NCBI RefSeq assembly: GCF_005543295.1
Contig: NZ_SRSG01000007.1
Location: 1-64,000, forward strand
Reading direction: 5' to 3'
DNA from: Halalkalirubrum salinum
GTDB lineage: Archaea; Halobacteriota; Halobacteria; Halobacteriales; Haloferacaceae
Length of the DNA stretch: 64,000 nucleotides
Numbering within the stretch: position 1 is the stretch's first letter; each line of letters starts with the position of its first letter. The notes under the pieces are model-generated. The model made no database searches. It had not been told where the DNA came from and saw only the letters and a program-made list of their open reading frames with translations. Of this stretch, positions 1 to 19,837 are shown piece after piece. Position numbers and translations under genes: made by a program.

Positions 1-61
1 TCGCTATAGTTCGGTCAAGTTCTTCTACAGCCAGTACCCCTCAGTAAAATTTCACAAATAG

Positions 62-630: not shown

Positions 631-680
631 CGTAATACAACAGCCAAAATATCATTAGAATGTGCCTCAATATCTAAATT

Positions 681-3517: not shown

Positions 3518-3762
3518 CTCTACAAACCAAAGTATGAGATATTTAGTTTAAAAGGTTAGCCCTACTAAATAATATTGAGGGAGTGGAGCTCCAATACTTT
3601 CTAAAAAATTCAAGCAACAGCACGTCGATCAGACTAATAGCAGGACTGTATTGCGATCGTAGAAAATGATTTTTCAAAAGATCATTTGTAAAAATATTAT
3701 TTCATTGGTTAGGTGATTGGAATTAATTACAGAAAGAAACGTTCGATATGGAAGATTGAAAA

Positions 3763-4156: not shown

Positions 4157-4341
4157 TGCAAATAGTGGGGCCCTGTTGAAGCCCTAAAGAATTGATAGGG
4201 TCGGCGTGCGAGATACAGAGCGTGAATTCAGCAAGTTCGAGTCGTCTCTATCCAAAATGAATTGGTTGAAACACCGTTAATTGCGTGAGCCATGCTGGTC
4301 AATTTTGACCCATTCTCACCCTACGATCTTGCAGGGAATAT

Positions 4342-4477
4342 TGTTTGTGGAGAGCGATTTGGTGATTTCACCAGGCGACCGTGGTCTACAAGAGGGGTGC
4401 GAGTCTAGTCCAGCGAGGAATTCTATCGGCCCAACTCAATGTATGGGCCGTCACCAACAATCTGCTTCACAAGAGTA
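4342..4477 (+). repeat. direct repeat DR1 (pairs with 5211-5353)
   Basis: Shares with DR2 the ordered words TGGAGAGCG, GCGACCGTG, GGGTGCGAG, GTCCAGCGAGGA, TTCTATC and CTTCACAAGAG over about 140 bp, with scattered substitutions and small indels. It lies upstream of the passenger gene of element A. A short frame through it (MLVNFDPFSPYDLAGNIV then GERFGDF) ends at a stop, so it may be the decayed start of another gene. Confidence 0.7.
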
Positions 4478-4510
4478 TATCATAATACATCTTATGATTG
4501 TAGCAAGTTC

Positions 4511-4518
4511 TATAAATA
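4511..4518 (+). promoter_or_regulatory. TATA box of the two-TM gene
   Basis: TATAAATA lies 28 nt before the ATG at 4539, the spacing of an archaeal TATA box that drives a leaderless transcript. This favours 4539 over upstream in-frame ATGs. Confidence 0.55.
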
Positions 4519-4538
4519 TCGTTGAGCAATTCTCATGT

Positions 4539-5174
4539 ATGTCAATAAGTGACGCAGCCCTCAATTCCCGAGTAACTAATGCTCTATCTGTAGGTCTAAC
4601 CAGTGGGGGTTTGCTTCTGGTAATAATCGGTGTGATACTCACTTTACAAAATATGCGGAATGGGAATTCTGCAGCGACTAGTCACTATTCTTCATTTGTA
4701 ACTGCTTCTGCGACAATAGTATTGGTAGGTGTGACATTATCGTATGCTTCAATTAGCAATCGGATTGCTAACGAGCATCAGAAAGACCGGCAACAGCGGA
4801 AGAATCAACGAGAAGAGGCAGCGAAGGGTCTGAGAAGGGCATTACGAAACGAGATCATGTCGGACAGTAACTACGACGACGCTATGGATTGGTCGTTGCA
4901 GGAGCTCATTACCGTAGAATCGTGGAGAAACGACAGACTGTACCTACAGAATGCTACACGGATGCATTTATTGACGGAAACTGAGATAGATAAGATTATT
5001 GGTTTTTATACAGCACAAAAATCGGTCGATAATATATGTAGCTCATACGAGACCTCAGATGATCTTCCTGAGAATTATGGTCGACTACATGAGAGAATCA
5101 GAAACAAACTCAAGGAGCTAGATACCGCACAAAAAAAGGCTAAATCTGAAATTGAACAGCATCTGGTTGATTAA
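4539..5174 (+). CDS. two-TM membrane protein with cytoplasmic helical tail (passenger of element A)
   Basis: A 211-residue protein starting MSISDAALNS. Two TM helices at about 20-38 (SGGLLLVIIGVILTL) and 52-72 (ASATIVLVGVTLSYAS) are followed by a charged, probably coiled-coil tail (EHQKDRQQRKNQREEAAKGL onward) ending KKAKSEIEQHLVD. The start is chosen from the TATA box at 4511. A longer frame from 4281 would translate the DR1 repeat and is rejected. No family recognised. The architecture (short TM hairpin plus helical cytosolic part) resembles many uncharacterised haloarchaeal accessory membrane proteins, some of which sit in defence islands, but no function is claimed. It occupies the place of the transposase in a TIR element. 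Confidence 0.65.
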   Translation: MSISDAALNSRVTNALSVGLTSGGLLLVIIGVILTLQNMRNGNSAATSHYSSFVTASATIVLVGVTLSYASISNRIANEHQKDRQQRKNQREEAAKGLRRALRNEIMSDSNYDDAMDWSLQELITVESWRNDRLYLQNATRMHLLTETEIDKIIGFYTAQKSVDNICSSYETSDDLPENYGRLHERIRNKLKELDTAQKKAKSEIEQHLVD

Positions 5175-5210
5175 AATCAAATGATTTCTTGACGCTCCTA
5201 TAGAGAGCAC

Positions 5211-5353
5211 TGTTGGTGGAGAGCGGTTCGGTAACTTTGCTGTGATTTAACCAAGCGACCGTGATCTCCAAGGTGGGTGCGAGGCTGGTCCAGCGAGGAG
5301 TTCTATCAGCCGAATACACGGGTCGTCACTAACAATTAGCTTCACAAGAGCAT
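5211..5353 (+). repeat. direct repeat DR2
   Basis: Second copy of the roughly 140-bp repeat described at 4342-4477, in the same orientation, directly downstream of the two-TM gene and upstream of the right-end box. The two copies bracket the gene, so the gene could have arrived between, or be removable by recombination between, the copies. Confidence 0.7.
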
Positions 5354-5555
5354 TTTTGACTACTCTGATGCGAGATATGCGGTGTGTATTCAGCAAGGCT
5401 GTTGAAACTTATCATCGATTGAGGGTTTCAACAAGGCTTTAAAAATCGAAAAAGAACCTGAACAGCTCATCGTACAGGAGACAGACGGTCGCGGCTGATT
5501 TTTTCATATACAAATGAAATGAGATGAGCGGGAGCTCAGGAATTCGCTCTGTTGA

Positions 5556-6150
5556 TTAGCGGGATGTGGCACCCCCTGCGTATTGGAGTAATTTGTAATG
5601 GTGATCACTGATCGTTTCGTAGGTGGCTATCTCGTTAGCCTCTGCGAGCGTCCGGCCGAGGAACCGTAGTGTGGCATCATCTACTTTGGTCGTGTCGCGG
5701 AACTCGAATGGGAGATATGTGGCATACTCATATCGATCGAGTTGGTCAACGATCGGCGAGATCGTGTCACGTACCGCTCCGAGCGTGATGTCGAGTGTGT
5801 CTGTAGTTGCCCAGTGTGCGAATGATGACGTGGTTGGGAAGCAGTCGAGCGCCAGGCGTTCGAATGATCTGCTGAAATACCGCGAGTATTCCTCGATTGA
5901 GGACGCAAGTTGGTACTCACCGATGAGTGCGCCGACGATGATCTGTGGAAGGATATCTTCCTGACACCAAGTGTAGACTGTGTCCGTTGACGTGTTGGCT
6001 AATATGCTCGATAGCGCGTTTCGAGTAGTCGCACTGGGGCATCAGCCGGTTGCCGTTCATCAAGAGGACGACATCATTCTGAGCGATGCCCTCTTGTACA
6101 CGGGTTTCGATCTCGCCAGGGTCAGAGACGGACTCTGGCTGGAACGTCAT
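5556..6150 (-). pseudogene. frameshifted monothiol glutaredoxin-like gene with foreign tail
   Basis: From the ATG at 6150 the frame begins MTFQPESVSDPG and contains VQEGIAQNDVVLLMNGN then LMPQCDYSKRAIEHISQH. This matches haloarchaeal Grx5-type glutaredoxins, whose site is usually CGYS (here C-D-Y-S). Near 6000 similarity ends in this frame and resumes one base over with ILPQIIVGALIGEYQLAS, a distorted form of the TIPQ-FVDGEFIGG segment. That frame then runs open for about 110 more residues (for example PIVDQLDRYEYATYLPFEF) to a stop at 5556, a length no normal glutaredoxin has. This is a frameshifted gene fused to sequence of unknown origin. Confidence 0.5.
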
Positions 6151-6212
6151 AGAGAGTAGTACACGGCGCTGCGGCAAATGGATTCCGCAAAGTCTGATGT
6201 GGTTCCGGTGGC

Positions 6213-6839
6213 CTACTTGTAGAAGAACCACCAAGCTGCGGTTCTTGAGTAGTCCCATCTCCGAGAGCCGCCGCCCCCGCCTCCCGAGTTCTGATTGGCG
6301 GTGTCGGAATCGCCGAACAACAGTGCAAGGATCAGGAGTACGAACACTATCTGTAGGCCGTGGATGATGGTCGCGTACTGCGGGAAGAAGATCTTAGCAA
6401 GATCTCCTGCGAAGTACAGCGATATCGGGAGTGAGATAAGCCACCCTGCGACCCCTATTATCGCAGGAATCATCATTAGCGGCGACAGGAGGGGGATATC
6501 CATATCGATTATAATCATTGAGATGATGAAGCCCCCGAAAACCAAAATGTACAGTATCTGGAAATCAGTCCAGAGGCCACCGGGGTCCGGACCCATCATC
6601 TTAGGAATCTGCAATATGACGAGTGGGCCAATCGTGACTGACAGACCGACAATTATGAAGACCCCAAAGCTGATGAGATCTAGACAAGTGCGCAGGAGTG
6701 ATCTGTCTTCTACTTCTTCGTCCTGATCGGTAGATTCTAGAGACTCTTCTGTCATATCATCCGTATTTTCCGCCGGCTTCTGGGCGTTCGTGTACATGCC
6801 CTGACTCTCGAGATAGTCACGATATTCTTCTTCATCCAT
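6213..6839 (-). CDS. multi-pass membrane protein with Gly-rich C-terminus
   Basis: A 208-residue protein. Residues 1-48 are acidic and cytoplasmic (MDEEEYRDYLESQG, STDQDEEVEDRS). About five hydrophobic helices follow between 52 and 178 (for example LISFGVFIIVGLSVTIGPLV, FQILYILVFGGFIISMIII, IIHGLQIVFVLLILALLFG). The tail is a short basic segment after a run of six glycines (SGGGGGGSRRWDY). No family recognised. A TATA-like TATATTAGATACTATAT lies just upstream of the ATG at 6839. It is transcribed toward the broken glutaredoxin gene. Confidence 0.65.
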   Translation of the reverse strand: MDEEEYRDYLESQGMYTNAQKPAENTDDMTEESLESTDQDEEVEDRSLLRTCLDLISFGVFIIVGLSVTIGPLVILQIPKMMGPDPGGLWTDFQILYILVFGGFIISMIIIDMDIPLLSPLMMIPAIIGVAGWLISLPISLYFAGDLAKIFFPQYATIIHGLQIVFVLLILALLFGDSDTANQNSGGGGGGSRRWDYSRTAAWWFFYK

Positions 6840-7173
6840 CTGTGTATATCATATATTAGATACTATATAAAACTGCTGACAGGATGGCCGCGGGAGGGGT
6901 AGTGCTGGTTACTCTTCGTCGGGGTCCGCATCACCGACGCCGTGGGTCAAGAGCATCCCCATTGCCTCTGAGGTCCGGCGCTCGATCATACGCCACCTCT
7001 GAGAGTGTAAGATGCCACGCCGCTCGACCGGGGGCGAGCAACCGGCGCGGGTGGCGTGGCGTTCATGCTGGCATGAGAATAAGGATCGTCCGTCTTGAAA
7101 CCTCCCGTCTCTCAGAAGAGTTGTGTAACGACCGTGGCCGGTCTGTTCCTCTCGTTAGTGCTCTGTGCTAACG
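6840..7173. other. intergenic region, probable decayed coding sequence
   Basis: No intact gene. On the minus strand a short frame ending at about 6907 (TSEAMGMLLTHGVGDADPDE before the stop) has halophile-like composition. It has no clear start and may be the 3' tail of a lost gene. Nothing else is supported. Confidence 0.35.
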
Positions 7174-7450
7174 CTACGTTCGGAAAGACTCACCGCAGCC
7201 ACACTCGGAGACGACGTTGGGGTTATCAACGTTGGACCCAACGGCCTGAAGACCGTTTTCGTAGTTGAGTGTGCTGCCGCCGATATAGTCTTATCTCGCT
7301 AGATCGATGAAGGTGCGCAGGCCGTGATGTTCGGTGAGGGAATCGTCTTCCTCGGGGTTGTGATTCTGCTGGCGACCACATGCAATGAAGAGGCCTGTAT
7401 CGGCGACCCATGCTACCTACTTGTGCAACGGATCGAACGGCTCGCTCATC
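7174..7450 (-). pseudogene. chimeric remnant: PIN-domain start joined to IscA/HesB C-terminus
   Basis: One minus frame reads VAWVADTGLFIACGRQQN, typical of the N-terminus of haloarchaeal PIN-domain proteins (first catalytic Asp in VADT). It then runs without a break into PEEDDSLTEHHGLRTFIDL, a TAA stop near 7288, and DYIGGSTLNYENGLQAV with the terminal VSECGCGESF. The last segment carries the two C-terminal ligand cysteines (CGC) of IscA/ErpA-type Fe-S carrier proteins. The join therefore fuses two unrelated gene fragments, one also carrying a nonsense codon. There is no start codon in frame. The PIN part lies directly after the regulator at 7461-8045, which often has such a partner. Confidence 0.55.
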
Positions 7451-7460
7451 TCCCTCGCAC

Positions 7461-8045
7461 TCACTCCTCGACGATTGGTGGCTGCTCACGAGCGTTCCGG
7501 ATTTCGTCGAAGTACGGATCGACTGTCCTCATATCAACGACGACATCTCGCAAGGCCTGCAACACAGCAATTGTGAACGAGTATTGGAGATCAAGCTCAC
7601 GGGCTGCGACCCGTTCTGACATCTCACCCTCTGCGTACGGGAGCGCATACGCGATCGCTGCGGCGAGCTTTCCGAGTCCATACCGCTCGATCAGGAGGTC
7701 AAGGTCCTGATCTCGGGGTGATCGACCGTATGTTTCGATGAGCGTTGGAGTAATCGTGTACTTGTCTCCGTCGAGATTCGCGGTGAGCGTGATTGGAACT
7801 GCCGAGTACGTGTGGGTCTTTTGTTCTTCGTCTCGAATCAGTACCCCGAGTTCAACGAGCGTACCCGCATCAGAGTACGCCGTGGTTCGCGGCATCTCCA
7901 ATTCTGCAACGATATTGTCGATGGTAACTTCGCCCTCGCGGAGAACGAACGTGTAGAGTCGCGCCAGCCGTGGCTCCTCTAACAACTGTGCGACCGACAG
8001 CAGGCCATTAACCGCTCGCTCGGGATCGCCAGCAGCCTTCGACAT
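7461..8045 (-). CDS. winged-helix transcriptional regulator (DUF7437-like)
   Basis: A 194-residue protein. Residues about 20-75 form a winged-helix segment (LARLYTFVLREGEVTIDNIV, then LEMPRTTAYSDAGTLVELGV), with the recognition helix in PRTTAYSDA. The middle (TYSAVPITLTANLDGDKYTI) and C-terminal parts are typical of a haloarchaeal regulator family I associate with DUF7437. Such regulators are frequently encoded beside a PIN-domain gene, and a truncated PIN start follows here at about 7450. A TATA-like TTATAAATT precedes the ATG. It sits between the nuclease-helicase operon and debris, so it could regulate either neighbour, but no operator is recognised. Confidence 0.75.
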   Translation of the reverse strand: MSKAAGDPERAVNGLLSVAQLLEEPRLARLYTFVLREGEVTIDNIVAELEMPRTTAYSDAGTLVELGVLIRDEEQKTHTYSAVPITLTANLDGDKYTITPTLIETYGRSPRDQDLDLLIERYGLGKLAAAIAYALPYAEGEMSERVAARELDLQYSFTIAVLQALRDVVVDMRTVDPYFDEIRNAREQPPIVEE

Positions 8046-8244
8046 GTAATTTATAATTCGTGTATTATGTAATAACGCTTGGGGAGATGGACACGCGATA
8101 AGATGCGAGTAATGTAGCCCATTGGTACCAGAATCGTACTCGATGCGATGTCTCTACAGCTTGGCGTCAGTTGGGATATAGTGATACTGGTCAAGAAGCG
8201 GCTACTTCCTACATAGCGTGCCTGCCGTGGAACTTTGCGTACAA

Positions 8245-11133
8245 CTATTCGTCTTCGTCATTGCCTGCTTCGACTGTGCGAATGATGTCACGCAATTGGC
8301 CCAGTGAGAGTGGATCAATGTGCTGTCGTTCATTGGTCGCCGTATAGAAGATACTGGCAGTGACCTCCTTCTCGGGAAAACAGTCCGTGAGGACGTGGTA
8401 GTACACACTGAGCTGTTTGCAGTATTCTTTTTCCGCGCGTCGTGTCTGATCGGTTTTGTAGTCAATGATTTCAACGCGAGTTGGAGTCTCGTGGACAAGA
8501 TCGACGATCCCAGAGACAGTCACTTGCTCGCCATCCACCGCAAGCGGGAGCACTGCTCGTTCTTCGACGTGTAGATCGCCGGGGAGGGAGTCAATGAACG
8601 CTTTGACGTGTTGTTCGTCGTCAGCATCGCTAGTCGTTGGAGAGACATCTTCCCCGAGTGCGTAGGCCTCGGCGAAGTCGTGGACCCGTGATCCGAACTC
8701 TTGACCCCGGAACTCTACTGACTCCATGTGGATCTCCTCTGTTGCAAACACATCACTATCCATCAGCGTGTGTGGCGTATGGCCGATCGGACCATCTGAT
8801 GGCACGATAGAGAACGGGAGTTGCGCCTGCGTTGTCGTTGGCTGGTCAGCGGCGTCAATCGTGGTGTCCGTGGGACGAGGTGTGAATGGCAGTTCCTCAA
8901 AGAACGTGTTTGGCTCCTCGCCGCCCGCAAAAATAACGTGATTTTCAGCACGAGTGATAGCGACGTAGAGCAGTCGTCGTTCTTCATCGTAGTCACGAGA
9001 CAGACAATGACGGCTAATGTCGTGCCGCCAGTTGTCGTAGACGTGGGGATGATCTGCAACCGAGGCGTACGTTTTTCGCTGGCGGATGCCGAGCGGTTCG
9101 GTGAATTGAATAACGCCCGATCGACCTCCACGTGGAGGGAATTTCCCGGCATTCATGTTAGCGAGCACAACGATCGGGTATTCAAGCCCTTTTGCAGAGT
9201 GAATCGTCTGAACTGTGACCGAATTCACACCAGCACTGGTATATATGTCGTGCGTACTTCCCTGTTCGATCCCGCGTTCGATATACCGAATCAAGTCCCC
9301 GAGCGTCTGTGTTGACCCATTGTGGACGGACTGTATCGTGTGGAGGATGACATCCGCGTGTTCGCCGGTGTATCCGTATCGATCGAAAACTGCCCGGGCG
9401 ACAGCACCAACGGATTCTCGCTCACGGAGGTCGTCCCTGAACGCGATCATATTGTCGGGATACGCACCAGTGTCGAGGATGTGATCAACCTCATCAAGTG
9501 TGTATCCTGCGTGTTCGAGTACGACTGCCCAGCCACGGTCTGCATCAGCCGTAAGAATCCGCAGCCACGCGAGCAGAATCTTTGCCTGGTTCGTTCTGAA
9601 GAGTTCAATCCCGCCATCGTACGCCATCGGGAAATCATACTTCTCTGCCACCGACAGCAGTTCTCGGCCGAAGTCGCGGGTTCGGGTCAGAACTGCAATA
9701 TCTCCATATTCTGGCGGCCGTGGCTCGCCGTCATCGCCTTCCACAGCGTATGCTTCGGCCCCAACAATATCTTGGATGGTAGAGAGGACCGCCTCATGTT
9801 GATCGGCATGGGCTATCCCCTCGATATGCGTATTGTCAAACGCAGCATTGGCGGACAACGAGTCAATCTCTTCGAGTACCGATCGATCGACATCATCGTG
9901 TTTGCTGCCCGGCGTTACGAGTGCTTCTTCGGAAAAGTCAAGCAGCGTTTGTGTCGAACGGTAGTTTTCGGTGAGAGGAATTCTGGTACTGTCGTCGATG
10001 TCAAAGGAGATTCGAGTCCGATCGGCGTTGAGCTCAGCGGTAAACCGCTTGATTCGATTGTCGAATTCACGGATATTCTCGACAGCAGCGTACTGAAACG
10101 AATAGATACTTTGTTTCCAATCCCCGACAACGCAGATATTGTCTGTTTCGGCGAACAAGAGCGCGAGTTTGAATTGGATCTCACTCGTGTCTTGGAACTC
10201 ATCGATCATCACGTACTCGAAACTAACGCGGTCTCTGAGCGAGTCGTCTTCACATAAGAGGACAAATGCGAAGAGCTGCAAGAAGCCGAACGTGAGGTAG
10301 TTCCGGCTGAGTGCGAAGTCAAGATATTCGAAGTAGATGTCGTGAATAAACGCTTTGAGATCCTCTCGATCTTCTTCGAAAACACGCCTAGCGACGCTGT
10401 CGGGAACCTGTTTTGTCCTGCTACCTCTGATCTCAGATTTAGCTGGGGCATCAGGAAGATACGTCTTGTTTCGTCCGAATCGACTGAGTTTACCCCGGAG
10501 TTTTGACTGCTTGCTCCCGCCGTTTCGTGGCTGATTACTGTCCTCGAAGAGCCGCTTGAACGCGTCAAAATCACCGTCAAGCGCGTCCTCGCCATTTCGA
10601 TACCATCCGGTCGATGTGGGAAAGATTCCTTTTGAGGCAAGTTCTGAGACGATATTGAGCAGGTTGCGTGGAGAAGACAACACACGGAAGAAATCAGCAT
10701 ACTCAGGGTGATCGTCACAGAATCCATCAATGAACTCCGCAAAGAGTTCATTCTCGAGGAGATCGTCCTCAACGACACGTGTTGAGTCGGTGATGCGTTC
10801 AGAAAGCCCGAGATGTGTCGGGGCGTGATGCCCGTGTTCACGTAATAGATCGAAGCAGTGAGAATGGAACGTCTGTATCGAGCCTTCAGTTAATTCGCGG
10901 AGGGAGTACGTCGAGTGCTCAACAATGCGTTCTTTCATTTCGGTCGCAGCGCTCCGGGTGAACGTCACTAACAGAACGTCTTCTGGCTCCACGCCTGGTT
11001 GATCAACAATGCGTGCGTAGCGACGAGTGACAGCGAACGTTTTCCCGGTGCCTGCACCCGCATCAACAACGTATATGCCGTCAGTACTGTGGATGAGCTG
11101 CCGCTGCTGTGAATTCGGTGTCGGTTCAGTCAT
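8245..11133 (-). CDS. AddA/UvrD-like helicase-nuclease
   Basis: A 962-residue SF1A helicase with a C-terminal nuclease domain. Visible motifs are Walker A AGAGTGKT (25-32), motif Ia LLVTFTRSAATEMKERI, motif II MIDEFQDTSEIQF, motif III VGDWKQSIYSFQYA, motif IV TENYRSTQTLLDF, motif V TIHSAKGLEYPIVVL and motif VI RRLLYVAITRAENHVI. A PD-(D/E)xK nuclease follows near residues 830-930 (GSRVHDFAEAY, SGIVDLVHE, VEIIDYKTD, KQLSVYYHVL). This is the AddA/RecB-type plan for break resection or foreign DNA degradation. The length is shorter than typical bacterial AddA (about 1200 aa). Its ATG overlaps the last codons of the AddB-like gene by 8 nt, so the two are one operon. Confidence 0.85.
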   Translation of the reverse strand: MTEPTPNSQQRQLIHSTDGIYVVDAGAGTGKTFAVTRRYARIVDQPGVEPEDVLLVTFTRSAATEMKERIVEHSTYSLRELTEGSIQTFHSHCFDLLREHGHHAPTHLGLSERITDSTRVVEDDLLENELFAEFIDGFCDDHPEYADFFRVLSSPRNLLNIVSELASKGIFPTSTGWYRNGEDALDGDFDAFKRLFEDSNQPRNGGSKQSKLRGKLSRFGRNKTYLPDAPAKSEIRGSRTKQVPDSVARRVFEEDREDLKAFIHDIYFEYLDFALSRNYLTFGFLQLFAFVLLCEDDSLRDRVSFEYVMIDEFQDTSEIQFKLALLFAETDNICVVGDWKQSIYSFQYAAVENIREFDNRIKRFTAELNADRTRISFDIDDSTRIPLTENYRSTQTLLDFSEEALVTPGSKHDDVDRSVLEEIDSLSANAAFDNTHIEGIAHADQHEAVLSTIQDIVGAEAYAVEGDDGEPRPPEYGDIAVLTRTRDFGRELLSVAEKYDFPMAYDGGIELFRTNQAKILLAWLRILTADADRGWAVVLEHAGYTLDEVDHILDTGAYPDNMIAFRDDLRERESVGAVARAVFDRYGYTGEHADVILHTIQSVHNGSTQTLGDLIRYIERGIEQGSTHDIYTSAGVNSVTVQTIHSAKGLEYPIVVLANMNAGKFPPRGGRSGVIQFTEPLGIRQRKTYASVADHPHVYDNWRHDISRHCLSRDYDEERRLLYVAITRAENHVIFAGGEEPNTFFEELPFTPRPTDTTIDAADQPTTTQAQLPFSIVPSDGPIGHTPHTLMDSDVFATEEIHMESVEFRGQEFGSRVHDFAEAYALGEDVSPTTSDADDEQHVKAFIDSLPGDLHVEERAVLPLAVDGEQVTVSGIVDLVHETPTRVEIIDYKTDQTRRAEKEYCKQLSVYYHVLTDCFPEKEVTASIFYTATNERQHIDPLSLGQLRDIIRTVEAGNDEDE

Positions 11134-13732
11134 TGCTCACCTCCGTAAGAATGAGATCACGGTTATCCACTCGCCGGTAATTTGGCTCGCCCCCCAGCCC
11201 GTCAACCGGGAATCGACCGTTGCCGCGACGGTACTCATTGAGCTCTGTAATCCTGTCGGCGACGAATGCTTCGATTGCGTCTAAATCGGATTTGAAAAAC
11301 GAATCCTTCCGAATACCGTTGAGCGCCCGAATCGCTTGGTCACAGCCTTTTTCAGCATTAACACTGGCAGACGTGTGTTTCTTTACTGCGCTCGTAAACG
11401 ATGTCGCAAAGTCTGATTCGCGGAGTTCGGATTTGACTGTGCTGTCGGGGAATGAACGTTCACTCAGGATATCGTGGTATGCCTCGAATCCTAGGTCCTC
11501 GAACGTTTCGACGCAGTCGTTGTACCCGCCAAGCAGCGTCTTGTAGGCGGTGCGTGAACGAATATGCTCGTCGAACGACCACGGATAGTACGTCACTGTT
11601 GTGAGCGTATCGTCTAGGTTGGCGTCGCCGGCGATGACATCATCAAGCGTTTCAAGAAAGTGGAAGAACGTAAACTGCAGACGCTCGTCAGGCTGAACGG
11701 TCCGGAAATGGCAGAGGTACATTGCCGCCTGATAGTTTGGTGTGTCGTGTGGCGGGTCAATGGCTGATTGTTTGATCACATCGCGTTTGGACTTCTTGCG
11801 ACTGCTTTTGAAATCTAGTAGCTGATTCGGGCTGTTGATCAGGTCGATCTTGCCTTTCATCCCGAGCGCGGTATCCTCAAACCACCGCTCAGTGAGCGGC
11901 GAGTCTACCGGCGTATCGAAATAGTCTGCGAAGTAATTGTTACCCCACCCAGTGGCCGGCGTGAGAAAGTCATCGGCTGCCGGACCATGAGCATCCAAGT
12001 ATTCGATAATCGTCTCAAGCCCAATGCGGTACGTACGGCGGCGTAGCGGCTCGTCCGTATCGGACGTGAGCGACCGTGCCTCCGTGAGCATGACCTCGAT
12101 AATCTCGTTCAGGACAGCTGCATCAACGGCATCCGGGTGATTTACATAAAATTCTGCGAAGTCGTGAAACAGGTTGCCCTCTACAAAGTAATCTTGGTCC
12201 GGATTATCGACTAATCGACTGAAAAAGTAGTCCCGGGGACAATTGACGTACTTGTTGAGGCTTGATTGGCTAATTGCCTCTACCGACTCCGGAGCAACAT
12301 CGATCGGCTCTTTCTCAAACCCGGTTGAGTCTGTGTCGTACGATCGTCGGTGTCTGACGGCATTCAAGTCACTAAATCGCTCATAATCCGTATCGAGTAA
12401 CTCGTTAAAATACAGACACGGCGTGACTGGCTGTCCGCCTTGCGTGTCCTGCACGAGATAGTATTGCTCAACACCGCTTTGCAGAAGCAGCTGAAACTGG
12501 TTGAGATATCGCTGAAACTGTGCGTCAGTATCTACCCATGGTCGCTGTGGCGCACTGTGTGTCCACGCTTCATCAATCCCAAGATGGAACACAACAGGCC
12601 GATCGACATATCCTGACGATTTTGCATCAGCCAAGAGGACACCCTCATTCTCCCGATCCACTGGGACCTCGTAGGTTTGGAAATAATACGTGAGCTCATT
12701 GATTTTGTGTTGGCGAACGCGGCTGTGTAACAGCCCTAACCGAGATAGCTCTTCTCGGAATGCGTCTAACGGTTCCCCTGTCTCAGATGCATATTCGGTG
12801 AGTGCCGCTGAAAATGTCACATCAGACAATGACGTGCAAAACTCAGTCACCCACGTCGTCGCCGGGAGATCAACCTCAAACAGTCGCTTGTTGTCGTGAT
12901 CGATCGGGACATCCACACCCATCTGCGTCAGCGTTGGCTTCACATCTCCGACGGTCGTTTCCGAGCCGCGGAACGCAGTCCGGCAGAGATTAAGGAACGC
13001 ACGATGGTGTGGGTTGTCAATGAATCCTGGTCCACCATAATACGGGATGTCGGCGGCTTCCAACCCAGCTTCGATAAGCGAGGAGTACCGGCTGTTGGCA
13101 TCCAATACAATAGCAACGTTCTCTGCAGTGTCGGGCGTGACGGTGTCGAGAATCGCACTCACAATATCTGCTGATGAGTCGAAAATATTGAACGAGGGGT
13201 ACGCGAACGACTCAGCGGTGAATAACTCAATTTGATCGTATTCGTCAGGGAGGACGCTCTGCTCTAATGTCGTCAACTGCTCTCCGCCGACAACTGCGAC
13301 AGACTCCGTATCGATGGTACACTCAGTGAGTGATTGTGATGTCGATCGGAGATCTGCCATGATGTCAACGACATCTCGGGTTACCTCATCAACATACGCA
13401 TCATACTCAAGAATTGACTCAATGGTCCCTTGATGCTCCCAGCACTGTAGGATATTCCCGATGGCGTAACTCACTGACTTCCAATCGTGGTCAGTTTGCT
13501 GCACAACTTCTAAAAACGCGGTTCGGTCCTCTGCTTGTTCTCGACGGCCTGCCGCAAATCGACGAGGAGTTGTCGCAAATGTGCCGAACTGTGGCACATC
13601 CACTCGACGATTGATTGCGCTTGCCAATGGTGCGTCTGGGGTGAGGACTAACTCATACTCTGAGACTTCTTCATAGAGTTGTTGAACTGGTTTAGCGCGC
13701 TGAATAGGCACGCTTCTACAGTGCGCAACCAC
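11126..13732 (-). CDS. AddB-like nuclease subunit
   Basis: An 868-residue protein and operon partner of the AddA-like helicase. The N-terminal about 480 residues look like a degenerate helicase scaffold (YELVLTPDAPLASAINRRV, IAIVLDANSRYSSLI-like strand, YYGGPGFIDNPHHRAFLNL), without the Walker A GxxGxGKT of bacterial AddB. A PD-(D/E)xK nuclease follows: SQSSLNKYVNCPRDYFFSRL near 495, GNLFHDFAEFYVNHPD, and the catalytic MKGKIDLINS ... LLDFKSSRKKSK near 645-670. CPRDYFF is the Cys that opens the Fe-S motif in AddB/Cas4 nucleases, but the later C-x2-C-type cluster is not evident. It probably forms a heterodimer with AddA acting on DNA ends. Confidence 0.75.
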   Translation of the reverse strand: MVAHCRSVPIQRAKPVQQLYEEVSEYELVLTPDAPLASAINRRVDVPQFGTFATTPRRFAAGRREQAEDRTAFLEVVQQTDHDWKSVSYAIGNILQCWEHQGTIESILEYDAYVDEVTRDVVDIMADLRSTSQSLTECTIDTESVAVVGGEQLTTLEQSVLPDEYDQIELFTAESFAYPSFNIFDSSADIVSAILDTVTPDTAENVAIVLDANSRYSSLIEAGLEAADIPYYGGPGFIDNPHHRAFLNLCRTAFRGSETTVGDVKPTLTQMGVDVPIDHDNKRLFEVDLPATTWVTEFCTSLSDVTFSAALTEYASETGEPLDAFREELSRLGLLHSRVRQHKINELTYYFQTYEVPVDRENEGVLLADAKSSGYVDRPVVFHLGIDEAWTHSAPQRPWVDTDAQFQRYLNQFQLLLQSGVEQYYLVQDTQGGQPVTPCLYFNELLDTDYERFSDLNAVRHRRSYDTDSTGFEKEPIDVAPESVEAISQSSLNKYVNCPRDYFFSRLVDNPDQDYFVEGNLFHDFAEFYVNHPDAVDAAVLNEIIEVMLTEARSLTSDTDEPLRRRTYRIGLETIIEYLDAHGPAADDFLTPATGWGNNYFADYFDTPVDSPLTERWFEDTALGMKGKIDLINSPNQLLDFKSSRKKSKRDVIKQSAIDPPHDTPNYQAAMYLCHFRTVQPDERLQFTFFHFLETLDDVIAGDANLDDTLTTVTYYPWSFDEHIRSRTAYKTLLGGYNDCVETFEDLGFEAYHDILSERSFPDSTVKSELRESDFATSFTSAVKKHTSASVNAEKGCDQAIRALNGIRKDSFFKSDLDAIEAFVADRITELNEYRRGNGRFPVDGLGGEPNYRRVDNRDLILTEVSND

Positions 13733-13776
13733 CTCGTTAAATCTTGGTTTTGTTTGTCATGATCTCAGCTGCTATT

Positions 13777-13995
13777 TTATTCGTCGATAATTTGTTCGTC
13801 ACTGATAGACAGAGAGGTGAGTTTTGCAACCAAGTGTAGGTCATGGAGATTAATATCGAAAGCAACCATCTCATTCCATTCCACTGACGTGGAGGGAAAG
13901 AGATTCACAGTGATATGATCGTCAGTCGGGAACGTATCTTGCGCTTGGACTTGATTTCTGACGTATGAGTGGGAACCGATGATTCTCTCAATACC
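13777..13995 (-). pseudogene. start-less coding remnant
   Basis: Between the nuclease-helicase operon and the next gene, one minus frame is open from a stop near 13996 to TAA at 13777-13779. It reads like a genuine protein (SHFEEGIERIIGSHSYVR, QDTFPTDDHITVNLFPSTS, LHDLHLVAKLTSLSISDEQ) but has no ATG or GTG start. It is about 72 codons of unknown family, probably the 3' end of a frameshifted gene. The rest of the 13733-14131 gap shows nothing else. Confidence 0.4.
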
Positions 13996-14131
13996 CTCCT
14001 CAAAGTGGCTGATATTTTCAACGGACTATTGCGTACTACTCGCCGTTTGGCGAGTGCACAGTCGTTGTTGCGTACAAGATATTTGCAACGATTGATTACC
14101 GTGTGTCGAAATTACAGTGTCGATGAGGCTG

Positions 14132-15079
14132 TTATTCAAGAATCAAGTTGTTTTGGATATCTGATAATATCTTCCGCTGTTGTACGAACCACTCAACAAC
14201 TTGTTCGTGGTCAGATGGTTCAATTGTCTCATTAATTGCGACAGTTGCAACTCCATTCCAATTTGATACAACATTCCAATTCTTAAACGACTCATCTAAC
14301 ATCTCTTCGTTCATGTCTACAAATTCTCGTATCTGCCCTTTTCGTTGGCTGTCAGTTCGTATATTAAGTGTGATGTTGCCTATATTATCGCCACTGTCTG
14401 CCTCTTTTGTGACATGCTGTCGCACACTGTAGTAGATATCAAAATCACCGATAGGATCTGGCTCAGTTTCATAACATCCGCTTTCTCTTGGGGATCGTTT
14501 GTTTCGTTCGAGTTCAGCTATGTCCTGATTAGCAAGTTCATCTGAGAGATGATCAAAAATAATTACTCGATCCATTCTAAGACCACTGGGAAAGGTAGCA
14601 CTTCGATATTCTTCCCAGTCGCTTGGAGAAACAGCTTGCGTGAACCCCATTGTTACAGACTCATCATTGGAATGACTAATCGATGGGGAAAGTGCAAAAA
14701 TAAACATTTGGTCATCATTTTCACCTATTCTAGATAGCTGTCTCTGAGTTATTGATGAAAATCTGTCAGCTATGTAAACTAAGACTGTTGCATCTTGTTC
14801 AATCGCATACTTGTGACCACGAGAAATGTGATCGTCATCAAGCTCACCAATCTTCGATTCAACTACGATTTGATCTGATCTACTTCCATAAGGTTCTGCT
14901 AAAATATCGATCCGTCCACAATCCGTTTCTGCTTCACGCTCTGCTTTACGAAACTGTACTCCAAGTTCGTACTCAAGCGCCTCACTGTGTTTAACAAGGG
15001 AGTCATTGAACTCATCTTCACTTCCAAATGCAGACACAATATCTGCTGTATCACGCTTGGCACGTATTTTTTTAGTCAT
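14132..15079 (-). CDS. PD-(D/E)xK nuclease-like protein
   Basis: A 315-residue protein. Residues about 20-120 have the layout of a restriction-endonuclease-like fold: FNDSLVKHSEALEYELGVQF (E in an early helix), CGRIDILAE (catalytic-type Asp), QIVVESKIGELDDDHISRG (E-x-K) and YAIEQDATVLVYIADRFSS. The C-terminal half (EYRSATFPSGLRMDRVIIFD, FDIYYSVRQHV) is a separate domain not recognised. The order resembles NucS/DUF91- or DUF4268-type proteins, though I cannot decide between them. It is encoded beside the AddAB-like operon and divergently from a phosphoesterase operon, so a role in DNA processing or defence is plausible but inferred only from context. Confidence 0.6.
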   Translation of the reverse strand: MTKKIRAKRDTADIVSAFGSEDEFNDSLVKHSEALEYELGVQFRKAEREAETDCGRIDILAEPYGSRSDQIVVESKIGELDDDHISRGHKYAIEQDATVLVYIADRFSSITQRQLSRIGENDDQMFIFALSPSISHSNDESVTMGFTQAVSPSDWEEYRSATFPSGLRMDRVIIFDHLSDELANQDIAELERNKRSPRESGCYETEPDPIGDFDIYYSVRQHVTKEADSGDNIGNITLNIRTDSQRKGQIREFVDMNEEMLDESFKNWNVVSNWNGVATVAINETIEPSDHEQVVEWFVQQRKILSDIQNNLILE

Positions 15080-15217
15080 ACCGCTAGTTCAGTGGCAAGA
15101 ATAATAAATATGTTAATTCATATATATGAGCTAAACTGGGTAAATTATGAGTGCCTGAAAGAACATGGGCTACCCAGATTTAGGTGGGATAAGACATAAT
15201 AGTGTTATTGAGATCAC

Positions 15218-15463
15218 ATGGCCGGATATCCAAACATAGACGAAATGGATGAATTATGGCCTGAAGAAGGCTATGCAGTGATCATCGAAGATGAGTGGAA
15301 ACCACCCGACAGTGACGATTTTATAAATATTCTAAGCGAGTTCTCCCATCCAAATTTCGAACTCCCGGTATCAACTGAAGGCTACTCATACTGGGTACAT
15401 GATGCTGACGGGAATAGGTACACCCGATCCGAATGGGAAGCACATAAAGAACATCTTGACTGA
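15218..15463 (+). CDS. small acidic protein, 81 aa
   Basis: Starts MAGYPNIDEMDELWPEEG and ends RYTRSEWEAHKEHLD. Very acidic, rich in Trp/Tyr (YSYWVHDADGNRYTRSEW), no cysteine, no TM segment. Not recognised. It lies 50 bp upstream of the phosphoesterase gene on the same strand, so the two are probably co-transcribed, with a CATAATAG element about 20 nt before the ATG as possible promoter. The size, charge and position would fit a regulator or DNA-mimic-like partner, but that is speculation. Confidence 0.55.
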   Translation: MAGYPNIDEMDELWPEEGYAVIIEDEWKPPDSDDFINILSEFSHPNFELPVSTEGYSYWVHDADGNRYTRSEWEAHKEHLD

Positions 15464-15512
15464 TTGTCTGTGGACGATTTGACGGCACACGTGGAATCTG
15501 AGAAGTGCTTCA

Positions 15513-16562
15513 GTGTCTGTGGGAGTCAGTAAGGCAGAAATAAACACCTTGGATACATCACCCATCGTAGTGCGCTATAGGGATGATATCGTTGATGGAG
15601 AGCGACTTGATGAAATCTCAGTCACAGTCTTTGAGGCAGAGAAATCTCCGAATTCTTCCCTCGCATGGATCCTTTCAGTCAAAGACGACGCAGGACAAGA
15701 GTTTGAGGTTAAGATCTGGCACACACACGACGTGGACATGTGGTGGCGTGAGGGCCAACGATATCTTCTGAGAGATGGACGTGGTACGAGACGCAGCGCC
15801 AGCGACATACTCCTCCACAGTACAGCAGATTTCACCGTCCATCGTCCGGAGGGCGTCGTTGACCTACTTGCGATAGGTGATAGCCACATTGGCAGGGAAA
15901 ACCGCCCAAAAGACAGCGGTGACCCGTTTCATACCACTCGCCAATTCGTCGCGGCAATGGGATACGCAGTCCGCTACGATGTCGATGCAGTGATCTACGC
16001 GGGTGATCTGTTCGACGAAGGTCCGAGTGTAGAGGAAATTGCTATCGCTGAGATCGGTCTCGATATTTTAGGCAAGAATGGCATTCCGTTCTATTTTGTT
16101 TACGGGAATCACGGTGTTGATACTGCAAAAGAGTTCTATGACGGGATCGAGAGCACGGACATCTCATATATCGGTCCCAAAGGGGTCTCTTTCAAGGGGA
16201 GTGTTGAAGTGTTTGGTGTTGACAATGGATCGAAGGAGGACATCAGTTCTGTTGTCTCTGACTTCGTCTCCTCTCCTGAGATAGACCGTCAGATCCTCGT
16301 GACACATAATGAGATCAAACCACCTCGTAAAACCGGTGTGATCACCGTAGAAACGCTCTATGCACTTTCGCAGATACAGTTTGATTACATTCTGTCTGGT
16401 CATCTCCATGACGCAGAATCGGGCACCTACTGTGAGACTGAAATACAATATCTCGGATCAACCGCCGATATCAGCGCGAATAAAAACGCCACAGATCAGT
16501 CTGCCTGGCTGATACATATCACGAGCGACGATATCAACAGTAGCCGGCTGAAAGTGAGCTGA
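15513..16562 (+). CDS. calcineurin-like phosphoesterase with N-terminal OB-like domain
   Basis: A 349-residue protein with a GTG start. Residues about 1-110 look like an OB-fold nucleic-acid-binding region (SLAWILSVKDDAGQEFEVKI, WWREGQRYLLRDGRGT). From 115 the metallophosphoesterase motifs run in order: GDSHIG (122-127, D-x-H), GDLFD (164-168), GNHG (198-201), THN (264-266) and GHLH (296-299). This is the Mre11/SbcD-like arrangement of a two-metal nuclease or phosphodiesterase. One oddity is that the invariant GNH(D/E) is GNHG. No Rad50/SbcC gene is adjacent. With an OB-like domain and AddAB-like neighbours, a DNA-end nuclease role is inferred. Confidence 0.8.
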   Translation: MSVGVSKAEINTLDTSPIVVRYRDDIVDGERLDEISVTVFEAEKSPNSSLAWILSVKDDAGQEFEVKIWHTHDVDMWWREGQRYLLRDGRGTRRSASDILLHSTADFTVHRPEGVVDLLAIGDSHIGRENRPKDSGDPFHTTRQFVAAMGYAVRYDVDAVIYAGDLFDEGPSVEEIAIAEIGLDILGKNGIPFYFVYGNHGVDTAKEFYDGIESTDISYIGPKGVSFKGSVEVFGVDNGSKEDISSVVSDFVSSPEIDRQILVTHNEIKPPRKTGVITVETLYALSQIQFDYILSGHLHDAESGTYCETEIQYLGSTADISANKNATDQSAWLIHITSDDINSSRLKVS

Positions 16563-16766
16563 GTTCCTTCGTTGTCTGTAACGCGGTATTATTTTCATCG
16601 GCATTCCGTTCATTTGCAGATTGACTGTTAATCAATGGCGGGGCCAAGAGAGGATTTTCAAACAACTCGCCAATAAAAACGCTCCCTCGAAAACTCTCGA
16701 TCGAACTGTCGAGTACTACCTACGAGTGTGCGGCGAGACAACTGCGACCCTCCACAGGCAAAGCAC

Positions 16767-17693
16767 TCAGACCGATCCCGTGATATCGGTTGTTGCTAAC
16801 GCTTGGTCGAGTCGCGTGAGTTCGTCACAATACTCGATTGCCTCAAGCCATCGGTCAGGCAGAGCGTCACTCCCGAACCGCGCACCCGCAAGCGCGCCTG
16901 TCACCGCACCAACAGTGTCCGTATCTCCACCGCGGTTGACTGCTGTAATGATAGCGTCTTCAGCTGTCTCAGCCGTTATGGCGTCGTATAGCGCCGTCTG
17001 TATGGTATGGACTGCATATCCCGTGGTTTTCAACTGTTTGTCATCGATCGTATCAGGAACCTTCTGCAAGGCAGTAATCAGCTCGTCTGGGGCTTCACCC
17101 CGGACACGATCGATCGCGGTCTCAAGCGGTTTGTCCACCCCGCGGAGATAGCCGGCGATCGTACAGTTGAGAATCACACACCCATACGTACATCGCGGAT
17201 CGTAATGTGTGATCGCCGAGGACTGCTTGCTGACCTGAACCAGCGTGTCAAAATCAGCAGCAAAGGCAATTCCGTGCGGGGCACAGCGCATCACGCTACC
17301 ATTACCTGCGTTTTGCCCTTCAGGACGGTCTCGCCAGACAGTACGGCCAGCCTCACGCCAAGAGACACCGCGATCGTACGCCCGGAGCGAGTCAGCAGTC
17401 ATCAATCCGATATCGAATGGACCACTCTCATACCACGCGCGAAAGCGATCCGCGATATCCTGACCGTCAAACGCCTCTCGCTCAACCAAGCTTCGGGCGA
17501 TGCAGAGCGCGAGATCTGTATCATCAGTCACTGTTCCGGCTGGTTGGCCATGCGACCCGTGTCCGAGCATCTCCGTGACTTTCCCATGCTGGGCAGCGAT
17601 CCACTCGGCTGAACGAAATTCGACAGGACGACCGAGGGCGTCTCCACACGCAAGGCCGCAGAGCACCCCTGTTGCAGAGTTATGTGAAACCAT
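16767..17693 (-). CDS. ADP-ribosylglycohydrolase (DraG family)
   Basis: A 308-residue protein with the full magnesium-binding signature of ADP-ribosylglycohydrolases: GLACGDALGRPVEF (13-26), TDDTDLA (56-62), NAGNGSVMR (128-136), ITHYDPR (161-167) and NRGGDTDTVGA (253-263). Members remove ADP-ribose from Arg or other acceptors. The all-helical length of about 300 is normal. It is a single gene, convergent with the phosphoesterase operon, just outside the TIR element at 17805. In an accessory region it could counter ADP-ribosylating toxins or reset a signalling mark, but no partner ADP-ribosyltransferase is visible in the window. Confidence 0.9.
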   Translation of the reverse strand: MVSHNSATGVLCGLACGDALGRPVEFRSAEWIAAQHGKVTEMLGHGSHGQPAGTVTDDTDLALCIARSLVEREAFDGQDIADRFRAWYESGPFDIGLMTADSLRAYDRGVSWREAGRTVWRDRPEGQNAGNGSVMRCAPHGIAFAADFDTLVQVSKQSSAITHYDPRCTYGCVILNCTIAGYLRGVDKPLETAIDRVRGEAPDELITALQKVPDTIDDKQLKTTGYAVHTIQTALYDAITAETAEDAIITAVNRGGDTDTVGAVTGALAGARFGSDALPDRWLEAIEYCDELTRLDQALATTDITGSV

Positions 17694-17797
17694 CAGTTAT
17701 CTCTCCACGATTGACAGACTGTATGCGTAGCTGTATGAAACCCACTCTGATGTGACAGACGCTCGAATGCTACAGGTAGGGTCATCACATTAGTGGA

Positions 17798-17804
17798 AAT
17801 CTTT
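17798..17804. repeat. target-site duplication, left copy
   Basis: AATCTTT directly abuts the left terminal repeat at 17805 and is repeated exactly at 19549-19555 directly after the right terminal repeat. Confidence 0.75.
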
Positions 17805-18007
17805 GGGCTCTGTTGAACTCCTCAATTAGTGATACTTTTCACCGAGCTTGCTGAATACACAGCGCGAGTCGGGGACGGTACTGATGGGAGTATGTCGGCG
17901 GTAGTTGGGGAGGGGTCGCCAAATTGGGGTGCCTATTCGCTGCTGTTCGGGTCGTCTATCGGCACTGTCCTCGCACGCTGTAATTCCTGATGATAGAGTA
18001 ATAATTA

Positions 18008-19414
18008 GTGAGTAGAGATGGAAAGCAACCTGTGACACTAGAAGACTTTTCAGAGGAGCAACGACAGTCCGTCGAGACGTTCATCTCGGACTGGTTGACC
18101 CAACATCGGATTCCCGGGGCTGCAGTAGCCGTCACCGAGGAGGGCTCGGTGGTCGCGGAAGGGTTCGGCGCCCGAACGCTTGAGAACAACACGCCGGTGA
18201 CCGGAGACACGCTGTTCGGTATCGGTTCCTGTACCAAGGCGTTCACCGCGACGGCCATCATGCAACTCGTCGAGCAGGGTGAGTTGGCACTCGATGATCC
18301 GGTCGACGAGTATATCCCGCATCTGATTGATGTGCCCGGTGAGCCGGTCACCGTCGAAGAGTTGCTCACGCACACCTCGGGTATGCCGAGCGACGACGTT
18401 GCACTGCCGCTTGTGGCCCGGCAATTCGGCGCCGGGGGTGAGGTGCCCTTATCAAGTGAAGCAGATTACCGCCGCCATGTTCAGGGGTCGACCGACCGTC
18501 GAGTCACCGACCGCGAGACGTTCTTTTACTACAACTCGGGCTATATCATGCTCGGGCGCATCATCGAGACAGTTTCCGGGAAAGAGTTCGCAGCGTACCT
18601 CGAAGAGGAGCTACTGAGCCCGCTCGGCTTAGAACGAGTGACGTTCGACCGAGATGTTTTCGAGGAAGACGACGATCGGATGACTCCGTACATGAAACAG
18701 GAGGGGCAGTCGGCGGAAGCGCCGTTCCCGTTCGACCCGCTCATCTATCCCGGGGGAGGACTCGTCAGCTCGGTACGCGATCTCGCTCACTTCGTGCGTG
18801 AGCTGTTAGACGGTGAAAGCGGCGATGAGGCTCTCCTGACGGCTGAGAGTCGCGCCTCAATGACCTCTCCGGTTGCGACACGTTCACGGTATCTTGATGG
18901 GAAGGAGGTCGGGTATGGATACGGACTCGCTATCGAGGAATTTCTCGGTGACGACCTGATCAGCCACGGGGGGTCAATCGGTGTGTCGAACGCATGGTTC
19001 GGATATCTAGAGGAAGCGGAACTCGGCGTCGCCATCGCTTGCACGACCACGCCCGAGACACACCCAGCCAAGGCCGGGAGGGGGGTTTTGGCGCTTCTCA
19101 AAGACGAAGACCCCGACGAAGTTCTCCCGTACTACCAACTCAAGAATGCGCTGAAGACGGCGTCGGGCGAGTATGCCGGGTACCAGAGCATCTCTCAGGC
19201 CAGCGTCGAACGCATTGGAAGCAACCTGAAACTACAGGTAGAGACAGCCGCTGGTGGGCAGGAGTTTCTACTCGTGCCTACATCCGTCGAAGAGGCACAG
19301 TTGAGTTGTACGACAGCTGACCCGATGGGCATGAAACAGGATGTTCGCTTCGAGCTACAGGGCGATGAGGTTGACCTCTTTATCAGCCGCTTTCGGTTTA
19401 CCAAGTCAGCCTGA
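18008..19414 (+). CDS. serine beta-lactamase/PBP-like hydrolase (passenger of element B)
   Basis: A 468-residue protein with a GTG start at 18008 (no ATG fits upstream of the conserved domain). It has class C beta-lactamase/D-peptidase family motifs: S-x-x-K in GIGSCTKAFTATAIMQLV (S74, K77), Y-x-N in FFYYNSGYIMLGRI (174-176) and HGG in LISHGGSIGVSNAWFGY near 320. Extra signatures are LTHTSGMPS and YGYGLAIEEF. The C-terminal about 100 residues are an added beta domain (YAGYQSISQASVERIG onward). No signal peptide is seen, so it is probably cytosolic. Archaea lack peptidoglycan, so substrates are more likely peptides, esters or small amides. Codon use is richer in GC than the flanks, in keeping with transfer. 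Confidence 0.85.
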   Translation: MSRDGKQPVTLEDFSEEQRQSVETFISDWLTQHRIPGAAVAVTEEGSVVAEGFGARTLENNTPVTGDTLFGIGSCTKAFTATAIMQLVEQGELALDDPVDEYIPHLIDVPGEPVTVEELLTHTSGMPSDDVALPLVARQFGAGGEVPLSSEADYRRHVQGSTDRRVTDRETFFYYNSGYIMLGRIIETVSGKEFAAYLEEELLSPLGLERVTFDRDVFEEDDDRMTPYMKQEGQSAEAPFPFDPLIYPGGGLVSSVRDLAHFVRELLDGESGDEALLTAESRASMTSPVATRSRYLDGKEVGYGYGLAIEEFLGDDLISHGGSIGVSNAWFGYLEEAELGVAIACTTTPETHPAKAGRGVLALLKDEDPDEVLPYYQLKNALKTASGEYAGYQSISQASVERIGSNLKLQVETAAGGQEFLLVPTSVEEAQLSCTTADPMGMKQDVRFELQGDEVDLFISRFRFTKSA

Positions 19415-19493
19415 GCCGCCAGTTGTGTAGCTCGCCAGCGGCAGACAGCTCTTTTACCCAGTCACGAGGCGGTGCTGTTTGTTCGGGACTCAT
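19398..19493 (-). pseudogene. possible transposase N-terminal stump
   Basis: Starts ATG at 19493, 27 bp inside the right TIR of element B, and reads MSPEQTAPPRDWVKELSAAG then ELHNWRLRLTW before a stop that overlaps the end of the beta-lactamase-like gene. A start codon this close to an IS end is where a transposase would begin. Similarity appears to stop where the passenger gene begins. No family recognised from 31 residues. Confidence 0.35.
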
Positions 19494-19548
19494 GCTGACT
19501 ATATGCAGCACGCGCTTCCTATCAGTTGCTGAGGGTTTCAACAAGCCC

Positions 19549-19555
19549 AATCTTT
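19549..19555. repeat. target-site duplication, right copy
   Basis: AATCTTT immediately after the right TIR of element B, identical to 17798-17804. Confidence 0.75.
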
Positions 19556-19764
19556 GATATAGCAATCTCAAATCCATCGATCCGATGTGTTTGACCCGGT
19601 CGAACCCTAGTATTATGTGCGTGCGCTGTCATTCAAATGTAAGCGAATCGCATGACAATGGCGACCCCCATCACGGAGCGTGACGAAATCAACACGGCCG
19701 AAGAGGGGTTCTTTTATAAGTGTCGTACTGCCGTCTGCCAAATGTTAGTCGTCACGCAGAATGA
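19556..19764. other. intergenic stretch between element B and tRNA
   Basis: No gene seen. A CTTTTATAAG word near 19712 could be a TATA box. No copy of the tRNA 3' end was found by eye. Confidence 0.35.
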
Positions 19765-19837
19765 CGGGCGCGACGGGATTTGAACCCGCGACATCTTGGT
19801 CCGGAACCAAGGACTCTGTCCACTGAGCTACGCGCCC
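19765..19837 (-). tRNA. tRNA-Arg (anticodon CCG)
   Basis: A 73-nt cloverleaf on the minus strand. The acceptor stem GGGCGCG pairs with CGCGCCC, with discriminator G at 19765. The D-arm is GCTC...GAGT, the anticodon stem CTTGG/CCAAG has loop TTCCGGA giving CCG (reads CGG, Arg), and the T-arm is GCGGGTTCAAATCCCGT. There is no intron and no encoded CCA. It divides AT-rich accessory DNA (left) from GC-rich core DNA (right), with its 3' end facing left. Confidence 0.95.

Follow-up and report, generated by a model that had tools for sequence, protein, structure and literature searches.

The stretch of DNA analysed here (the window, 64,000 nucleotides) comprises positions 1-64,000 of contig C59 of this genome, so that its first base coincides with the contig end. 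The minus strand carries at 19765-19837 a tRNA-Arg(CCG), the attachment gene of the locus, which a first-pass annotation had placed here and which both ARAGORN and Rfam recovered (RF00005, 64.8 bits); it is the sole RNA family match over the Rfam gathering score in the window. The same annotation had described AT-rich DNA to the left of the tRNA and CGATCG-rich DNA to the right, and this contrast was borne out, with a GC content of 49.6% versus 60.5% and CGATCG densities of 1.21 versus 5.62 per kb. The shift in GC at the border is gradual, the DNA at 17-20 kb still having about 57% GC. A second AT-richer dip (GC 49-54%) lies inside the GC-rich right part, at 47500-52000.

Reading leftwards from the tRNA, the first protein encoded is a serine hydrolase of the beta-lactamase family (18008-19414, plus strand; Pfam PF00144 and Pab87_oct). 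Beyond it lie genes that would be cargo of an element: an ADP-ribosylglycohydrolase (16767-17693, minus; PF03747), a calcineurin-like phosphoesterase (15513-16562, plus; PF00149), a protein resembling the candidate defence family PDC-S11 (14132-15079, minus; PADLOC, 1.4e-12), a PD-(D/E)XK nuclease protein that we judge to be AddB-like (11126-13732, minus; PF12705), a UvrD helicase with a PD-(D/E)XK domain that we judge to be AddA-like (8245-11133, minus; PF00580 and PF12705), and a protein with a type I restriction R N-terminal domain (1316-2410, minus; PF13588). None of the 11 ORFs scanned left of the tRNA is an integrase, in line with the first-pass annotation. A dispersed repeat of about 65 bp, which may be one end of a small element with inverted repeats, is present in the window at 5385-5433 and 17806-17870 and on contig C51 at 4673-4737. 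It is found on several contigs of this genome and in related genera.

The candidate left attachment site, attL, is a 24-nt sequence that takes in the 3' end of the tRNA and one further base, GGGTTCAAATCCCGTCGCGCCCGT (19764-19787, minus strand). The first 20 kb of the window hold no copy of this 24-mer with up to 6 mismatches other than the tRNA itself, as the first-pass annotation had also noted; it had concluded that an island might be present whose left boundary lies beyond position 1 or has decayed, and had suggested looking further out for a repeat of the tRNA tail. That search was productive. The suggested 20-mer has one further mismatch-free occurrence in the genome, at C51:5977-5996, where ARAGORN finds no tRNA; the block common to the tRNA tail and C51 is the full 24 nt (C51:5974-5997) and lies 0.1-0.2 kb from a tyrosine integrase. 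The integrase ORF (C51:4753-5868) carries Phage_integrase (PF00589) and Phage_int_SAM (PF02899) domains and faces a 13-nt core copy at C51:5884-5896, which is 16 bp from the first possible start of the ORF and 117 bp from the start that we judge likely (5766). With the contig end at position 1 and both the tail copy and an integrase on C51, the proposal of an island reaching past the window gained support. Two further stretches near this integrase are recombinase-like: C51:123-1433, which lies with the integrase at the island end and has a weak match below the Pfam cut-off, and C51:1399-2646, so judged by eye and having no Pfam hit. C51 also bears a second tyrosine-recombinase ORF at 12033-12977.

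How the pieces may fit together is clearest in the congener, halophilic archaeon SHRA6. Its Scaffold2 (ML241294.1) carries the tRNA (656007-656079), a 76.4-kb island, the integrase and the far core (732483-732495), all on one contig. Four blocks of the window, at 19553-19763, 17597-17805, 8261-13804 and 5438-5994, recur in the same order in SHRA6 and make up about one third of the window's left part. The block at 8261-13804 is 97.4% identical in the SHRA6 island and that at 5438-5994 (no strand assigned) 96%; the short block 17597-17805 reaches 89.5%, and most of the blocks lie above the identity of the core DNA. The serine hydrolase gene has no match at the equivalent place in the SHRA6 flank. 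Contig C34 matches SHRA6 705040-726703 piecewise, at 94-99%, over the first 17.7 of its 35.5 kb, and C51:93-5896 matches SHRA6 726692-732495 with 3 mismatches in 5,804 bp (99.95%). In SHRA6 the C34 and C51 sequences abut with a 12-bp overlap, which is consistent with an insertion, with a target duplication of the IS kind, having split them here. In its middle part the island is not alike in the two genomes, and so it is a mosaic.

The core DNA to the right of the tRNA is 87-96% identical to SHRA6 (about 91% weighted; seven blocks of at least 500 bp, 37.5 kb). Against this background, the 99.95% identity of the integrase end argues that the element moved recently, and a recent transfer would be the simplest reading. 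Core identity varies, however, since a 763-bp stretch with the tRNA and a ferredoxin gene is 97% identical. The first-pass annotation had named a left flank conserved in relatives as the finding that would speak against an island, and formally this is half the case, as the congener does have blocks of the left flank. These blocks, however, belong to the same mobile island, with the same integrase and core copy at its end, and mostly exceed core identity. In six other genomes, from five other genera, the DNA adjoining tRNA-Arg(CCG) differs, and no protein from the left flank was found in the fetched flanks of 7-20 kb.

What is read directly from the DNA is thus an intact tRNA, displaced copies of its tail, an adjoining integrase, a one-contig island in SHRA6, and excess identity at the integrase end. 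We regard it as very probable that the DNA left of tRNA-Arg(CCG) (1-19763, no strand assigned) is the tRNA-proximal part of an integrated element, E1, within an overall account that includes an SNJ2-family integrase at the far end, a switch of isoacceptor, and serial docking sites. In this account, the far-end integrase would recombine a short core with the sequence of the 3' tail of the tRNA, CCCGTCGCGCCCG; because the core equals the tail, the tRNA gene stays whole and the displaced tail copy marks the far end. The integrase presumably acts on these core sites, and C59, C34 and C51 presumably join here in the order seen in SHRA6, with E1 broken by the contig end and continuing on C34 and C51. 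E1, 76.4 kb in SHRA6, would measure about 61 kb here with all of C34, or about 43 kb with the SHRA6-matching part of C34 only. Two further inferences concern its history and its setting: the ancestors of E1 may have used tRNA-Arg(TCG) before an isoacceptor switch, and the locus may be a series of docking sites, consisting of the tRNA tail and two stubs repeating its sequence, with one element at each.

The tail copies on C51 could instead derive from another locus or from a separate replicon, for example as the attP of a plasmid, with the AT-rich region being merely decayed accessory DNA. C59 and C51 are indeed unjoined in the draft assembly, in which no contig joins C59 to C34 either, and both ends of C51 are repeated sequences. 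We nevertheless consider this very improbable, given that a single contig of SHRA6 carries the same integrase end and the same tRNA, 76.4 kb apart and with C34 DNA between them, and that the exact 20-nt tail occurs in this genome only in tRNA-Arg(CCG) and on C51. Beyond the far core, the SHRA6 DNA is unlike C51 and maps to other contigs in this genome, and for that reason the SHRA6 far flank failed as an empty site. A core-like copy with 1 mismatch also lies beside an integrase remnant in SHRA6 (G001:C2, 745227-745239), 12.7 kb past the far core, which may point to one more element in the array of that genome.

Much of the recognisable cargo of E1 is predicted defence genes. In addition to the proteins of the window, C34 encodes HmaB- and HmaC-like proteins, McrBC, Mrr and an HNH protein, and the SHRA6 island encodes a type IIG enzyme, PLD-helicases and an HNH protein. 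Several predicted defence systems are thus clustered, as in a defence island (those of C34, the PDC-S11-like protein of the window and the type IIG enzyme of SHRA6). Pfam scans of 47 proteins chosen from the window, from C34 and C51 and from the island of SHRA6 named no gene for conjugation or for a capsid. The border hint of the first-pass annotation has thereby become a mapped, recently moving defence island with an integrase, two ends, and a congener for comparison.

Immediately left of the tRNA, a stretch of about 160 bp (19604-19763, minus strand) is conserved at the tails of tRNA-Arg genes in other genomes, and we take it to be the left terminus of the element. It is noncoding so far as the ORF lists go, and by eye contains a TATA-like CTTATAAAAG (19711-19720) and an imperfect palindrome (19670-19684). 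A search of 392 genomes of the order gave a match in 40, counting this genome and SHRA6. From the 42 places listed we drew 30 distinct loci, the other 12 being mostly weak and outside the count (31 rows were examined, of which L129 and L163 are one locus by coordinates, and counts are given per 30). The border falls at a tRNA-Arg tail in all 30, extrapolated in L182, L183 and L185, where the match begins further in. The neighbour is a complete tRNA-Arg(TCG) in 19 loci, a bare CCTGCAGCGCCCA core in nine, and tRNA-Arg(CCG) in two, namely this genome and SHRA6 only; the tail is thus of the TCG type in 28 of 30.

The 160 bp might alternatively be host sequence, either a conserved element downstream of tRNA-Arg or a small RNA, and its position behind a complete tRNA-Arg(TCG) in 19 of 30 loci and its TATA-like box would fit such a role. 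Yet in nine of 30 loci it follows a bare tail core with other DNA in front, and at L163 that other DNA is where a related integrase element ends; in this genome it follows a different tRNA, and in 352 of the 392 genomes no match was found. A host origin therefore seems most unlikely to us, and we retain the reading as an element terminus. With this, all four features of the Islander type by which tRNA-targeting genomic islands are recognised are present: an intact tRNA at one end, a displaced tRNA 3' fragment in the same orientation at the other (on one contig in SHRA6, on the separate contig C51 here), a tyrosine integrase inside, and sporadic presence, as seen in the differing flanks of six genomes from five genera and in the patchy distribution of the terminus.

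Among phage records, the E1 integrase is closest to that of SNJ2 (43.9% identity over 99%, tblastn). An extract of PMC8371274 gives at least 30% identity over 60% of the protein as the mark of the SNJ2 family, and the E1 integrase lies above both values. It also has the two domains of the family, Phage_int_SAM (PF02899) and Phage_integrase (PF00589), and its relatives follow the restriction of the family to Halobacteria, with all 58 related GTDB loci titled haloarchaeal or archaeal. Matches on Sinorhizobium plasmids reached only 23% identity among the matches listed, and viral contigs yielded a single distant relative. Upstream of the related integrases, the Arg-tRNA core was present with at most 1 mismatch at 43 of 58 loci and with at most 2 at 47, mostly 100-118 bp from the integrase gene; controls at up to 2 mismatches gave 1 of 56 downstream and 0 of 58 for the reversed core. 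The core tails are of the TCG type in 34 cases, CCG in 10 and Haloferax-type CCG in 3, some of them at odd distances and doubtful.

To place the E1 integrase among its relatives, a tree was built from 47 of the 58 loci (at least 270 aa before a stop) together with three sequences from this genome. The E1 integrase falls inside the users of tRNA-Arg(TCG), in a nine-row clade with seven TCG users (support 100/97), while the nodes nearest to it have moderate support (94/80, 91/64 and 88/76). At six of the nearest loci, integrases 87-93% identical to that of E1 sit at the tail of the gene for another Arg isoacceptor. The second C51 integrase falls in a Halorubrum and Halobellus clade of CCG type (100/99). 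Since the terminus lies at TCG tails in 28 of 30 loci and the tree agrees, the best reading is that E1 descends from tRNA-Arg(TCG) elements and switched isoacceptor. E1 would then be a natural case for studying how a tyrosine integrase changes its target. At the tRNA-Arg(TCG) tail of SHRA6 (G001:C3:89535-98200), we noted by eye the apparent left end of another element, and 8.6 kb further along there is a core copy with 1 mismatch; an E1-like integrase was not found in the 20-kb stretch there. In Halobium salinum (G006), a diverged integrase of the same family (33% identity; 4227-5898 of its locus) lies about 0.5 kb behind the same tRNA-Arg.

The island resembles several described elements. Genomic Island 3 of Haloquadratum walsbyi is a strain-specific insertion of about 52 kb at tRNA-His with a 43-nt repeat (PMC3119063, in extract). 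Like E1, it starts at a tRNA, ends with a repeat of the tRNA 3' end and carries an integrase and restriction genes; by the same extract, its integrase adjoins the intact tRNA and is related to that of virus HF2, whereas E1 has a short core at tRNA-Arg and its integrase at the far end. Integrases of the SNJ2 family are characterised in the extract of PMC8371274 by very short att sites of 13-14 nt at tRNA 3' ends and by confinement to Halobacteria. The SNJ2 provirus shares with E1 the family integrase and the short att at a tRNA 3' end, and differs in being a small virus, E1 being a large island at tRNA-Arg with no virus structural genes among those scanned. Halfgib1 and Halfvol3, pleolipovirus-like proviruses of 12.5 and 16.3 kb, likewise lie near the end of a tRNA-Arg, in their case in Haloferax (PMC7911831, in extract), and the XerC/D-like integrase of Halfgib1 is 41.6% identical to that of E1. 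The E1 island is thus of a known kind, and the unexplained part is the stubs. Two pieces of background are useful for comparison: SNJ2 itself targets tRNA-Met, and several elements lying side by side at one attachment gene are termed tandem accretion, from which C51 differs in that two of its putative docking cores sit in short tail-repeat stubs of a sort that occurs elsewhere without elements.

C51 bears five copies of the core, at 5884-5896, 5984-5996 (within the 24-mer), 9457-9469, 9531-9543 and 13145-13157 (one mismatch). Two stubs, counted with their tails, lie at 5897-5996 (100 bp) and 9470-9543 (74 bp). The segment 5998-9469 holds Yip1 and Fic genes, and an integrase was not found in it; the segment 9544-13157 encodes SWIM and ATPase proteins as well as the second integrase, with ATA at its aligned start. 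Removing E1, 5998-9469 and 9544-13157 in silico leaves a tRNA-stub-stub arrangement, and the same layout is found behind tRNA-Arg(CCG) in G032, with core copies at 106 bp and a further 77 bp. A single stub follows this tRNA in G011, G035, G010 and G026 and none in G006, and in each genome the copies track the sequence of its own tRNA. The SHRA6 far core has no stub behind it, so the stub layout is absent from the nearest relative. The likeliest reading of the five cores is that three elements have docked, one of them at the tail of the tRNA and the others at the two tail-repeat stubs. Matching of left and right end motifs was rejected as proof of the element limits for E1 (107/200) and E5 (41/200) because shuffles do as well, and beat the shuffles only for the small element E3 (2/200). 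We also considered whether the C51 SWIM-domain gene might be the native neighbour of the tRNA, as one lies near the same tRNA in G011. Two Halorubrum loci, L113 and L114, spoke against this reading, since a similar stretch lies directly behind an att core there; the gene may therefore be element cargo, and the reading was dropped.

Stubs of this kind are common behind haloarchaeal tRNAs. Defined as a 13-nt copy of the tail with at most 1 mismatch within 260 bp of the tRNA, a stub follows 27 of 76 tRNAs in eight genomes (G000, G011, G035, G038, G044, G055, G056 and G057), compared with 1, 0 and 0 of 76 in upstream, far and reversed controls. The loci were the best-scoring tRNAs plus chosen regions, and are therefore not a random draw; before exclusions the counts were 13/30, 6/42 and 9/29. 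The exclusions comprised 14 tRNAs belonging to the L226 array, 8 tRNAs closely followed by another, 8 duplicates and 3 tRNAs at edges. For one of the 27, ARAGORN called a tRNA without a type. The tail is always that of the stub's own tRNA, and the copy is separated from the tRNA by 52-194 bp. In 12 of these stubs, 10 nt or more from the last 26 nt of the tRNA are also present in reverse complement (reversed control 0/27). Folded as DNA and compared with shuffles, two stubs of G032 fold well (z -3.7 and -5.5, with intervals off by about 1 base), and the two C51 stubs hardly better than shuffles (z -1.6 and -1.0).

We propose tentatively, at somewhat short of an even chance, that these short downstream modules (about 50-190 bp), with a copy of their own tail, often its reverse complement, and an ability to fold back, are extra attachment sites for serial docking, as with the three elements at three tails on C51. 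Alternatively, the C51 stubs could be all that deletion has left of older elements at this site, and the series plain tandem accretion. Tandem accretion is a term used for bacteria, deletions would leave displaced tails, and the SHRA6 far core lacks a stub. On the other hand, remnants of deletions should vary more than stubs of such similar design, with their 52-194 bp spacing, own tails and, in 12 of 27, a reverse complement (the latter is also seen at 6 of 49 tRNAs without a copy). We therefore think deletion remnants the less probable of the two and rather doubtful, and continue to favour docking sites. We know of no description of tail-repeat modules behind haloarchaeal tRNAs, and among the papers listed by literature searches there was none announcing tail-repeat stubs; the nearest likeness known to us is the E. 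coli tyrT locus, with its repeats holding tRNA 3' ends. In Haloferax gibbonsii, a 90-bp direct repeat at a tRNA-Arg was deemed a likely misassembly (PMC7911831, in extract), and it could be such a stub. Standing behind about a third of the tRNAs examined, stubs are a testable feature of haloarchaeal tRNA genes. The array set aside above (L226, G011:C1:1152500-1155500) consists of at least 14 tightly packed tRNA genes and is reminiscent of virus-encoded tRNA arrays.
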